From the NCBI GenBank assembly GCA_902564385.1, contig CACFAT010000007.1, forward strand, positions 1 through 49,136: a stretch of 49,136 nt of DNA, read 5' to 3'. The position numbers were made by a program, and so were the translations under genes. The DNA is from an uncultured Pelagibacteraceae bacterium (lineage in GTDB: Bacteria > Pseudomonadota > Alphaproteobacteria > Pelagibacterales > Pelagibacteraceae). Under the pieces are notes generated by a model, which saw only the letters and a program-made list of their open reading frames with translations, made no database searches and was not told the DNA's origin. Below are positions 29,735 to 32,503 of the stretch, piece after piece. The stretch's first letter is position 1; the number at the start of each line of letters is the position of its first letter.

Positions 29735-30376
29735 TTACTGAAGTGTAGTATTTTCAAAGTCGTCTTTAATATAATTATTTAAAATTTGCTCCATTTTTTC
29801 TTTTCTAATATTTATATCAAGACTTTCTAATAATATTTGTTTTTCTTCTAATGAGAATGGTGAAGCCATTGATAAATCATTAAGAGTTTGGCTCATGTCT
29901 TTCTTTTCTAAATCTTTTAGGTTTACAACATATCCTTGTTTTTTAAAAAATTTTTTCATGTTCTCCATAATTAAGCTTAAGTCAGAAAAGTTAACTTCAT
30001 TACTTTTTTGCATTATATCTTTAGAAAAATTATCGTATTGAACATTGCACTCACGGTACATTTTGTCAGAATTTAATTCTGAGTTAATTTTGTATCTGCA
30101 AATCCCATTTAAAATAATAAGTATTCTACCGTCGTCCGTTTCATTAAAACTTGTGATTTTTCCAATACACCCTATTTCATATAAATCAGGTTTTTTCAAA
30201 GACCCAGTTTTTTTTGGCTGTATCATCCCAATCATTCTATGCTTTTTCATACTATCATTCACCATTTGTAAATATCGAGGCTCAAAAATGTTTAGGGGAA
30301 CAGTTGTTCCAGGAAACATTATAAAATTTGACAAAGGAAAAATTGGTATAGTTTTTGGTAGTTCTTCAAGTTTCAT
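29735..30376 (-). CDS. LON N-terminal (substrate-binding) domain protein, no protease domain
   Basis: A 213-residue protein made only of the Lon N-terminal domain: IPIFPLSNFIMFPGTTVPLNIFEPRYLQMV at the start, IGCIGKITSFNETDDGRILIILNG in the middle, and a helical C-terminal part. There is no AAA+ or Ser-Lys protease region. Such stand-alone proteins are common in alphaproteobacteria, where their exact role is unclear. It is convergent with the Ubi-type gene and divergent from tRNA-Gly. Confidence 0.9.
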   Translation of the reverse strand: MKLEELPKTIPIFPLSNFIMFPGTTVPLNIFEPRYLQMVNDSMKKHRMIGMIQPKKTGSLKKPDLYEIGCIGKITSFNETDDGRILIILNGICRYKINSELNSDKMYRECNVQYDNFSKDIMQKSNEVNFSDLSLIMENMKKFFKKQGYVVNLKDLEKKDMSQTLNDLSMASPFSLEEKQILLESLDINIRKEKMEQILNNYIKDDFENTTLQ

Positions 30377-30499: not shown

Positions 30500-30574
30500 G
30501 CGGGCATAGCTCAGTGGTAGAGCGTCTCGTTGCCAACGAGAAGGTCGTGGGTTCGAGTCCCATTGCCCGCTCCA
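30500..30574 (+). tRNA. tRNA-Gly(GCC)
   Basis: A complete cloverleaf: acceptor GCGGGCA pairs with TGCCCGC, D-arm GCTC/GAGC, anticodon stem TCTCG/CGAGA around loop TTGCCAA (anticodon GCC), T-arm GTGGG-TTCGAGT-CCCAT, and discriminator T followed by encoded CCA. The next gene starts 10 bases after the CCA. A 48-base copy of the 3' part of this tRNA lies 1.57 kb downstream. Confidence 0.97.
30527..30574 (+). repeat. Left copy of the 48-bp tRNA-Gly 3' direct repeat (attL-like)
   Basis: The stretch from the anticodon stem to the CCA of tRNA-Gly is repeated at 32101-32148 with 46 of 48 identical bases. In this copy it is part of the intact tRNA, as expected at the side of an integrated element where the tRNA is kept functional. 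Confidence 0.85.
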
Positions 30575-30584
30575 AAAATTTATT

Positions 30585-31808
30585 GTGATTATAAAAAATT
30601 TAAGACAATTAATAAAATTAATATCAAATAATTACTTTATTAAATCAGAGAGTAAGGAAATTTTCGAAGAATATGAAATAATTATTCATGAAATTCTTAA
30701 AAAAAAAAAATGTAAATTCAAATTATCTGATAGTGATACTTTAAAAGAAGACAATTTATATATCACAATAGACCCTGCGATTTACAAGAAGTATAATAAT
30801 AAATTCAAAATTTTTCTATTTGTATTTACAACCATAAAAGACAATTCAAATTTACTTCTCTTGTATGAATATAGTAAAAATTTTAACAAAAAATCTACTT
30901 TAAAGTATAATGAAAAATTATTCGAAAAATTCATTTACAAATATCAATCAAATAACAAAGTTAGCGGTATCAATTATTTTTTAAGTTTTCTCTCTTTATT
31001 TCTTTATAGAACAAATAAAAAGAAATTTGCATTTAAAATTGAAAAATTTGTAACAAAGAATGGCAGATTACTGGGTAAAGCATATCAAAATAGATTTTTA
31101 AATGTAAATCCAACAGAAAATTTTACTAAAAAATTTGCAAAAAATTTAAAGATATTAAGTAATCAAAGATCAAAAAGAATTTACCAAAGTACATTAAATG
31201 CAAAACCAAATAAAATTTGGAGAAATAGATATTTTCAATTTTATCTAAACAATCAATATTTTGATTATATCGGTTCTTTAAAAGATAAAGTTATAATTAA
31301 TCTTGGAGTTGGAAGTGGATTTGAGATACCATTATTTTTGTCTACAAAACCGAGCATAATTTTAAATATTGATCCATCAGGAGATAAGCTCTTGGAACCC
31401 TATGTAAAATATTTTATTGATTTTATGCAAGATAAAACTGAAATAATTTATGATTTAGATTATTTATATGATGATAAACTAGTTTATGTTAAAGGTTTAA
31501 ATTCAAAGTGTATTGACTTTAAAACTATTTTAAATCGGTATAATTTTAAAAGTATTGACTATATTAAAAGCGATATCGAGGGATTTGAAACAAATTTGGT
31601 TAATGAACTTGATGAAGTAATTCATAAATATAGGCCAATTTTAGCGATATCCATCTATCATTTAGATGTTAAGAATATTGATATAAATATACAGTATGTT
31701 GATTTAATGGATAATCTAGTTAAAAAGTGTAAAAATTATAATTTTTACGTAAATCATTATTCATACCACAGGTCAGAAACAATTTTATACTGCATTCCAA
31801 AAAAATAA
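30585..31808 (+). CDS. FkbM-type SAM-dependent methyltransferase with a long N-terminal extension
   Basis: A 407-residue protein. The C-terminal part (about 235-407) has the SAM-binding strand VIINLGVGSGFEIPLF and the FkbM hallmarks IKSDIEGFETNLVNELDEVI and RPILAISIYH. The first 220 residues are lysine-rich, match no domain I recognise, and may choose the substrate. The start is GTG at 30585, only 10 bases past the tRNA-Gly CCA, so it may depend on the tRNA promoter. Very high A/T content and cargo position in a tRNA-flanked element suggest transfer. FkbM proteins often methylate sugars or glycolipids, so a surface-glycan role is possible but inferred. Confidence 0.82.
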   Translation: MIIKNLRQLIKLISNNYFIKSESKEIFEEYEIIIHEILKKKKCKFKLSDSDTLKEDNLYITIDPAIYKKYNNKFKIFLFVFTTIKDNSNLLLLYEYSKNFNKKSTLKYNEKLFEKFIYKYQSNNKVSGINYFLSFLSLFLYRTNKKKFAFKIEKFVTKNGRLLGKAYQNRFLNVNPTENFTKKFAKNLKILSNQRSKRIYQSTLNAKPNKIWRNRYFQFYLNNQYFDYIGSLKDKVIINLGVGSGFEIPLFLSTKPSIILNIDPSGDKLLEPYVKYFIDFMQDKTEIIYDLDYLYDDKLVYVKGLNSKCIDFKTILNRYNFKSIDYIKSDIEGFETNLVNELDEVIHKYRPILAISIYHLDVKNIDINIQYVDLMDNLVKKCKNYNFYVNHYSYHRSETILYCIPKK

Positions 31809-32100
31809 AAATTTTTACACCTACGACTAAGTAAACTAAAGATATACAGAAAGAGTAGAAGCAACCATTCTATATATTGGAAAGGTCGAACATCCTTTAT
31901 TAATTTTCACTGCAACAGTTTCTGGTACTTCCATTGAGTCAAGCTGACTCACTACGAACACATTGAACACAAACATTCTTGATTTGTTCTTGTCTGTTTG
32001 ATAACGTAGGATTAATTTAATAATGTCCGATTAAGATAGAATTTGTTGAATAGTAGAGAGAGGATTTAAGTAGAGCACGTTGGTCTTGATTACATAATTT
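31809..32100. other. 292-base stretch without a convincing gene; possible RNA or degraded sequence
   Basis: This gap is less A/T-rich than its neighbours (about one third G+C by my hand count). Two small hairpins are visible on the plus strand: AAAGG/CCTTT (31881-31898) and GAGTCA-AGC-TGACTC at about 31936-31950. On the minus strand a 46-codon frame runs from ATG 31976 to TAG at 31836 without interruption, but it has no recognisable family and no clear ribosome-binding site. The sequence AGTAGAGC near 32070 matches the D-arm end of the nearby tRNA-Gly, so the right end may hold a decayed tRNA 5' part. Confidence 0.4.
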
Positions 32101-32148
32101 TCGTTGCCAACGAGAAGGTCGTGGGCTCAAGTCCCATTGCCCGCTCCA
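32101..32148 (+). repeat. Right copy of the tRNA-Gly 3' direct repeat (attR-like tRNA remnant)
   Basis: Matches 30527-30574 at 46 of 48 positions; the differences are T-to-C at 32126 and G-to-A at 32129, both in the T-loop (TTCGAGT becomes CTCAAGT). It keeps anticodon stem-loop, variable loop, T-stem, acceptor 3' strand and CCA, but the 5' acceptor and D-arm are not present, so it cannot make a tRNA. The two T-loop changes suggest it is free of selection. Confidence 0.85.
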
Positions 32149-32164
32149 ATAAAGGAATGATATT

Positions 32165-32503
32165 ATGAGTGATTTAGCAAGTAAAAAATGTATCCCGTGC
32201 GAAGGCAACATCCCGCCATTTAATACAGAAGAAATTCATAAATATTTAAAACAAGTTGATGGATGGGAAGTTATAGAGGATAAAATTGATGGATTTCATT
32301 TAATAAAAAATTTTAAATTTGATGATTTTTTACAAAGTCAAGAATTTGTAAATAAAGTTGGTGAGATTGCCGAAGCAGAGGGACATCATCCTGATTTATG
32401 GTTTGGTTGGGGATATGCAAGAATTAAAATATTTACTCATGCAATTAAAGGTCTTGCTGAGAGTGATTTCATTTTAGCCGCTAAAATAGATAAGATAAAT
32501 TAA
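32165..32503 (+). CDS. phhB: Pterin-4a-carbinolamine dehydratase (4a-hydroxytetrahydrobiopterin dehydratase)
   Basis: A 112-residue protein of the PCD/DCoH family. The active-site region reads EAEGHHPDLWFGWGYARIKIFTHAIKGL, with the E-x-x-H-H-P and T-H residues that bind the pterin. An N-terminal segment with a CIPC pair precedes the WEV start of the fold. By family it dehydrates 4a-hydroxytetrahydropterins after aromatic hydroxylation; no phenylalanine hydroxylase is in the window. Its start lies 16 bases after the tRNA-Gly remnant. The stop and that of purH abut with no gap. Confidence 0.92.
   Translation: MSDLASKKCIPCEGNIPPFNTEEIHKYLKQVDGWEVIEDKIDGFHLIKNFKFDDFLQSQEFVNKVGEIAEAEGHHPDLWFGWGYARIKIFTHAIKGLAESDFILAAKIDKIN

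Follow-up and report, generated by a model that had tools for sequence, protein, structure and literature searches.

A probable non-autonomous single-gene integrative cassette at tRNA-Gly(GCC) in a SAR11 genome

The interval between a tRNA-Gly(GCC) gene and the pterin-4a-carbinolamine dehydratase gene (PCD) of an uncultured Pelagibacteraceae bacterium (assembly GCA_902564385.1, contig CACFAT010000007.1) raises the question of how a single gene comes to lie between a complete tRNA and a second copy of that tRNA's 3' end, in a unit that carries no recombinase. We followed this locus in the window, by which we mean the whole stretch of 49,136 nucleotides that was analysed (positions 1 to 49,136 of the contig, forward strand), and in other SAR11 genomes, most of which are incomplete. 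The unit is probably a non-autonomous single-gene integrative cassette that would have entered as a circle carrying its own tRNA-Gly 3' half.

The tRNA-Gly(GCC) gene is the only tRNA of the window and its only Rfam match at the gathering threshold. Its last 48 bases, from tRNA position 28 to the CCA (30527-30574), are found again at 32101-32148, 1574 bases further on and with two mismatches, just as the original prediction had described; the copies differ at tRNA positions 53 (T to C; 30552/32126) and 56 (G to A; 30555/32129). The cargo gene begins with a GTG 10 bases 3' of the CCA, and the distal tRNA end is separated from PCD by 16 bases, the same spacing as at empty sites. The locus is laid out as follows:

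29735..30376, minus strand: gene of a LON substrate-binding-domain protein (LON; PF02190, 122.9 bits), left flank of the hot spot
30500..30574, plus strand: functional tRNA-Gly(GCC) gene (ARAGORN; Rfam, 75.3 bits; allele comparison)
30527..30574, plus strand: first repeat copy, resembling a left attachment (att) site, attL; anticodon stem to CCA, 48 bp (direct repeat)
30585..31808, plus strand: cargo gene, FkbM-like S-adenosylmethionine (SAM) methyltransferase of 407 aa, GTG start (open reading frame (ORF) call; PF05050 match below the cut-off)
31809..32100, plus strand: noncoding distal part of the cassette, 292 bases (ORF, Rfam, tblastn and folding)
31945..31962, plus strand: a pair with a weak likeness to the arm sites of integrases (score 9.2; not significant, shuffle p 0.10)
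32101..32148, plus strand: second repeat copy (attR-like), read as the displaced native tRNA-Gly 3' end (direct repeat; allele comparison)
32165..32503, plus strand: PCD gene, right flank (PF01329, 93.4 bits)

A repeat of merely 48 bp in a single genome could in principle be an assembly artefact or a product of chance. The runner-up site for this 48-mer on either strand of the window has 23 of 48 mismatches, which excludes a chance repeat. As described below, both junctions fit the native flanks, the copies carry different alleles of which one is native, and similar cassettes recur in other genomes, so that an origin of this kind is extremely improbable.

Was there an empty site for the unit to enter? 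The PCD protein was sought in 201 genus genomes and was present in 168. In the 14 closest by this protein (L006-L019, 96-99% identical), the tRNA stands directly before PCD with 16 bases between them, and the slot is likewise empty in four later stretches with a PCD at least 95% identical (L231, L232, L240 and L251). Site-specific integration at the tRNA had been predicted from the repeat, with an empty site or different cargo in other SAR11 genomes as its expected sign; both were found, all 14 closest loci being empty and many others holding other cargo, and the native allele in the PCD-side copy supports integration as well.

That allele is seen in the T loop, which reads TTCAAG, with an A at tRNA position 56, in the 15 relatives compared (L006-L019 and L022). 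The distal copy of the window reads TCAAG, combining the relatives' base at position 56 with a new T to C change at a base for which every listed tRNA-Gly(GCC) variant has T, and the DNA downstream of it is like that of the relatives. Because it has kept both the relatives' T-loop base and the native downstream DNA, the copy beside PCD is, on this comparison, the displaced native tRNA 3' end. The functional tRNA reads TTCGAG, with a G at position 56, and the same tRNA sequence is found at 14 other loci in more distant lineages. Since the relatives have another base here, the 3' half of the functional tRNA was most likely brought by the insert. A plain A-to-G mutation is a possible source of the G; it would alter only which half counts as foreign, and not the structure. 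The alleles place the crossover within the tRNA, between positions 28 and 56, and each of the two junctions contains the target segment and runs unbroken into its flank, as insertion of a circle would give. To judge from its sequence, the structure is that of a Campbell-type integration product with the crossover inside the tRNA.

The slot is part of a hot spot. Longer stretches were fetched (n = 176), of which 15 were set aside as incomplete (LON, tRNA or PCD missing), leaving 161 complete loci; seven short stretches were excluded as duplicates of a longer stretch or of the window, and L140 was excluded as lacking the PCD gene. With a locus counted as occupied when more than 400 bases lie between LON and the tRNA or more than 200 between the tRNA and PCD, 98 of the 161 loci are occupied by various genes and 63 are empty on both sides, which bears out the suggestion of a hot spot with exchangeable cargo. 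The occupied interval is LON-tRNA in 56 loci, tRNA-PCD in 13 (window included) and both in 28, with one further locus filled on both sides around an inverted tRNA. In L097 (genome G102), the tRNA-Gly is inverted relative to PCD and lies about 1 kb before it. The 133 ORFs of the first batch fall into 22 clusters, two of them large (53 and 40 members) and the rest smaller. Pfam matches of single members include TPR/sulfotransferase (PF13469), sulfotransferase (PF00685), FkbM (PF05050), glycosyltransferase (PF00534), methyltransferase (PF13578) and a pilin-type N-terminal motif (PF07963); a porin-like one had no Pfam match. Of the 176 stretches, 2 have an integrase of the satellite family discussed below, searched with members of that family only, in the interval from LON to PCD.

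A 3' scar like that of the window was sought in 31 other stretches in which tRNA and PCD are over 200 bases apart (29 distinct loci, since L025/L044 and L026/L045 each represent one place), and none rose above the 95% value of 100 shuffles; L242, L254, L236 and L237 likewise stayed below theirs. In L180, a score of 17 against a shuffle value of 16 was not convincing. Such scar-less loci leave room for ordinary recombination, and the window may represent a young stage of slot filling or a rare and separate type of event. An origin without any site-specific recombinase would have DNA from a SAR11 lineage with the TTCGAG allele taken up and joined by homologous recombination in the tRNA and by an illegitimate join at the other end. 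The 14 other loci with the window's exact tRNA sequence fit this, tRNA and PCD being over 800 bases apart in 11 of them and the tRNA being inverted in one more, as do the filled but scar-less slots, those of L242 and L254 included. Against it, the native segment from position 28 is found at both junctions with continuous flanks, and target DNA would have to be duplicated if the exchange were linear; the cargo gene, moreover, is matched in only 3 of 399 genus genomes. We regard this origin as improbable.

The three matches are the window's own genome, genome G050 of the same genus (37-38% identical) and a spurious one (22%, with nine stops). The G050 homologue shares the stretches INLGV..GFEIP and IKSDIEG with the window protein, and such conservation at 38% identity shows that the cargo is a real gene; no tRNA lies within the 16 kb examined around the homologue. 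Among the matches listed for genomes of GTDB r220, only the relative already known came up, in record AG-919-I10, and the cargo gene has no match in phages. The original prediction named an FkbM-type methyltransferase gene 10 bases past the CCA. The start is as described; the family assignment is marginal, the protein reaching 22.4 bits against a curated cut-off of 22.7 for PF05050, 20.4 against 37.7 for NCBIfam TIGR01444, and only a weak match over 50 residues (E 0.0027) to PDB 2py6 'Methyltransferase FkbM', so that we call it FkbM-like only. FkbM-like enzymes in such variable loci usually methylate surface glycans, and the family together with the neighbouring genes suggests that this one would methylate or otherwise alter a surface glycan. 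Lying directly behind the tRNA, it may be driven by the tRNA promoter.

Where, then, is the recombinase? The unit is 1574 bp long and has one gene, with no replication or packaging genes and no tyrosine recombinase ORF in 30575-32100, and tblastn with eight satellite-family integrases found no integrase remnant in 31701-32165 or 30575-31808 (best E 1.8). No integrase was thus found in the unit, as had been noted originally. The noncoding stretch behind the gene is also as predicted: its 292 bases contain no complete ORF of at least 60 aa and no Rfam match. Its matches to SAR11 DNA are all short, 19-63 bases each, and occur in 16 of 200 other genomes. A structured RNA was considered for this part and rejected (z 0.68; 146 of 200 shuffles fold equally well or better). 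At E 0.001 no further tRNA-Gly(GCC) pieces were found in the window's own genome, which is 84% complete; two other matches there are a tRNA-Asp and a tRNA-Val.

Other genomes carry related units at the same tRNA. The anticodon-arm 14-mer was counted in 201 + 80 + 80 + 147 genomes, which after removal of 13 repeats are 495 distinct ones; it is present in 311, 120 of the 495 belonging to other genera in which the exact core is mostly absent. A second exact core was found in 16 of the 311, which is a lower bound, since the scan detects exact cores only: blastn recovered cassettes with a mutated core in G041 and G194, and L084 and L238 have a right arm (see below) with no second exact core. The cassette of G041 (L102) is a second small FkbM cassette at tRNA-Gly (PF05050, 63.2 bits). 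The window is the sole 3'-half case among the 16; the other 15 elements repeat the 5' half of the tRNA together with its promoter. Two of these, in G180 (6.1 kb) and G124 (8.4 kb), bear a tyrosine integrase beside their left end, with a primase-like protein in addition in G180. The remaining 13 are cassettes of 0.86-2.3 kb with no integrase ORF; ORFs were called individually in those of G010, G047, G120, G152, G172, G291 and G357, and for the other six, all of the 1647-bp type, the absence of an integrase was judged from near identity to cassettes so called. The suggestion that the window unit is a minimal integrase-less cassette therefore gains from 13 others at the same tRNA and is qualified by their mirrored geometry and by the lack of demonstrable arm sites in the window.

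A cassette of exactly 1647 bp, whose gene encodes a secreted choice-of-anchor-I protein (PF22494), recurs in nine genomes (G010, G047, G120, G256, G279, G284, G303, G315 and G388; stretches L083, L213-L215, L217, L218 and L235 are among those that contain it). Eight of them form two subgroups, with 2-7 differences within and 58-63 between, and the ninth, in G120, departs from them in its left end and aligns to them at 95-98% identity. The host DNA around them has diverged far more: in the 13 within-subgroup pairs, the aligned downstream flanks are 68-92% identical (at most 72% in seven of the 13), and the upstream flanks, which could be aligned in six of the 13, some upstream stretches being short, are 67-85% identical. 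The promoter DNA at the upstream fragment is host-specific; the complete tRNA has a cassette-specific promoter and 5' half and a host-specific 3' half. As these cassettes have kept the sites without the enzyme and are nearly identical across diverged genomes, they are, in our view, best explained by mobilisation in trans.

Several single cassettes and neighbours can be mentioned here. Those of G120 (L078) and G357 (L219) have different cargo, the G120 body being of the 1647-bp type, and nearly the same left att arm, which in sequence terms is a sign of recombination between cassettes. The 2273-bp tRNA-Gly cassette of G291 (L216) encodes, at 268-2148 after its left core, a 626-aa protein whose ATPase domain is of the GHKL/HSP90 type (PF02518) and which may serve in defence. 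In a viral contig (L234, 1-1967), an 87% identical homologue of the choice-of-anchor-I gene stands directly before a gene for a PstS-like periplasmic binding protein (PF12849), a neighbourhood that hints at a role of the choice-of-anchor-I protein in phosphorus uptake.

The sites that the 5'-half elements have kept include arm repeats of the integrase. Pairs of a 7-base repeat (consensus GGNCACA, read by eye) occur in all 15 elements and in L160, a viral contig described below. The left pair follows the left core at a distance of about 71-84 bases, and the right pair lies before the right core, by about 120 bases in the cassettes and by 157-158 in the integrase-bearing elements. For the right arms, scores range over 14.8-25.8 in the 15 elements and L160. 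The matrix was built by eye from the elements that it scores, and the fairer number is therefore the control at the left offset: left arms of the elements score 18.7-25.8, against at most 5.7 at the same offset in 176 distinct tRNA cores, where the one entry at 18.7 is G124's own element core.

Given the integrase-bearing elements, the window unit could be what is left of a larger satellite or prophage that came in with its own integrase and has since decayed to one cargo gene and the att copies. The 6.1-kb and 8.4-kb elements at the same tRNA make such an ancestor conceivable, the 292-bp noncoding tail looks like a leftover in a small genome, and the weak arm-like pair of the window, 156 bases before the distal core, lies about where the right arms of G180 and G124 sit (157-158), an agreement noticed after the fact. 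No trace of an integrase was found in either of the two intervals searched by tblastn, however, and the 13 cassettes of 0.86-2.3 kb show that integrase-less units exist, the 1647-bp one even spreading. We therefore consider a remnant unlikely, if somewhat less so than uptake without a recombinase.

A source for an integrase in trans is suggested by the viral contigs. Among these, the joined 5'-half sequence gave nine matches, of which only L160 carries the tRNA half: it has the tRNA-Gly promoter region and 5' half, followed by GTAGTCC. L160 is probably a circular phage satellite: it is 5998 bp long with a 123-bp terminal redundancy, which points to a circle of probably about 5875 bp, and it encodes an AAA-ATPase, a small-terminase protein and an integrase whose two pieces match that of G180 at 73-80% identity. 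The integrases of the G124 and G180 elements are related to that of L160, and L160 and the elements have the att sequence in common. Integrases of this satellite family are found in 17 of 399 genus genomes at E 1e-30, several others of them adjoining a tRNA-Met, a tmRNA or half of a tRNA with the anticodon CAT (read by eye). In the viral contigs, a scan with a single sequence gave no relatives of the satellite integrase, and a scan with an alignment recovered L160 together with seven distant relatives. In the unrelated viral contig L039, a tyrosine integrase gene (PF00589, 63.5 bits) and a tRNA-Gly of which only the 3' half is present lie some 180 bases apart, so this 3' segment is usable as an att site elsewhere. 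Four other candidates for 3'-half viral matches (L038, L040, L041 and L042) proved to be whole tRNA genes and were dropped. In addition, a whole SAR11-type tRNA-Gly(GCC) gene is found at 603-677 of L188, a viral contig of 43 kb that also has SbcCD-like recombination genes. In G258 (L221, 12996-18973), the neighbours of a satellite-family integrase are two methylases, C-5 cytosine and N-6, and a BpuSI-type restriction protein, and the group may be a defence island carried by a satellite.

The locus in the window would then have arisen as follows. A circle with the FkbM-like gene and its own tRNA-Gly 3' half would recombine with the native tRNA-Gly between positions 28 and 56, giving a hybrid working tRNA (native 5' half, imported 3' half) with the gene 10 bases behind it, and leaving the native 3' end as a scar before PCD. 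The tyrosine recombinase would act in trans, a phage satellite being one possible source, and the crossover core may be the near-palindromic anticodon stem-loop. Williams is said to have reported in 2002 that some integrases use a sublocation in the anticodon loop, and Zhao and Williams reportedly described, in the same year, integration with reversed tRNA orientation. The window cassette is like the 5'-half ones in its tRNA, its single gene, its lack of an integrase and the repeat boundary in the anticodon arm. Whether they all belong to one SAR11 class of integrase-free one-gene cassettes, with half a tRNA-Gly and short arm repeats as their sole parts for mobility and moved between species by satellite integrases, with the window's cassette as a mirrored form that entered via the 3' half of the near-palindromic stem-loop and put its methyltransferase directly behind the tRNA, seems to us evenly balanced.

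Several results weigh against entry as a mobilised circle. L242 and L254, whose PCD proteins are 93% and 88% identical to that of the window, hold a sulfotransferase-like gene between tRNA and PCD with no scar; the slot therefore also gets filled without a repeat. The arm motif is not significant in the window, unlike in the 5'-half elements (best pair 9.2, 156 bases before the distal core; shuffle p 0.10 on the plus and 0.86 on the minus strand). The 3'-half geometry has no sibling among the 16 two-core genomes, no integrase-bearing 3'-half element was found at tRNA-Gly in SAR11, and neither an exact copy of the window's distal junction nor a close relative of the cargo gene was found in viral contigs, the latter search being sensitive to close relatives only. 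The window's own genome (84% complete) contains no satellite-family integrase at E 1e-30; among the matches listed in a general integrase search, whose places were compared by eye with the PCD contigs, it has one integrase-family protein, of 325 aa, a length that recurs in many genus genomes, and by reading we take it to be Xer-like.

The non-autonomous cassette that we prefer can be set beside known systems. Small tRNA-anchored cassettes with repeats of tRNA fragments are described in Ca. Actinomarinales, in an envelope-sugar island (PMC7771536), and in flexible genomic island 2 (fGI-2) of Methylophilaceae (PMC10872708). With these additive fGI cassettes the window unit has in common the repeat of a tRNA part at the far end (48 bp here, with the native allele in the distal copy), varied cargo at one site and emptiness of the site in relatives. 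The SAR11 case differs in that the crossover can be traced by alleles, that the empty site is found in close relatives, that there is one fixed tRNA-Gly site between LON and PCD, and that neighbouring cassettes keep the arm sites of an integrase without the integrase. Tycheposons, of 4-200 kb (PMC10872708), and virion-encapsidated integrative mobile elements (VEIMEs) are marine satellite-like tRNA elements (PMC10872708, PMC10803314, PMC11389934), which like the present case show a tRNA target and cargo exchange in ocean bacteria, and satellite-like integrase-bearing elements (L160, G124 and G180) use this very tRNA; compared with these and with phage satellites, the window unit has no recombinase, is only 1.57 kb long and carries one gene. 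Cis-mobilizable elements (CIMEs), clusters of attC sites lacking integron-integrases (CALINs) and miniature inverted-repeat transposable elements (MITEs) have lost the recombinase and kept its sites (PMC5704250, PMC11389934), and the cassette proposed here would share with them the sites without an enzyme and the reliance on another element. With an att-like repeat and no integrase trace by tblastn, the unit would be CIME-like if it once had an integrase; it is not visibly derived from an integrative and conjugative element, an integron or an insertion sequence, and it differs further in its single gene and in using the tRNA as the core site. From the SAR11 5'-half tRNA-Gly cassettes it differs in repeating positions 28-75, whereas theirs is the 5' half and promoter with arm repeats. 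For SAR11 itself, a prophage in tRNA-Val is described (PMC7542561) and prophages are reported to be rare (PMC7771536); among the matches listed for open-licence papers, there was no report of the SAR11 tRNA-Gly site or of its integrase-less cassettes.

SAR11 bacteria are among the commonest cells of the ocean and have very small genomes. A fixed tRNA at which single genes for surface sugars or secreted proteins enter without an integrase of their own would be a concrete route of gene trade in these bacteria, and the combination of half a tRNA with arm repeats gives a DNA signature for counting such trade, whichever SAR11 genome is examined. Mobilisation in trans becomes directly testable with the 1647-bp cassette, which shows 2-7 differences between genomes that are 68-92% identical in the flanks.

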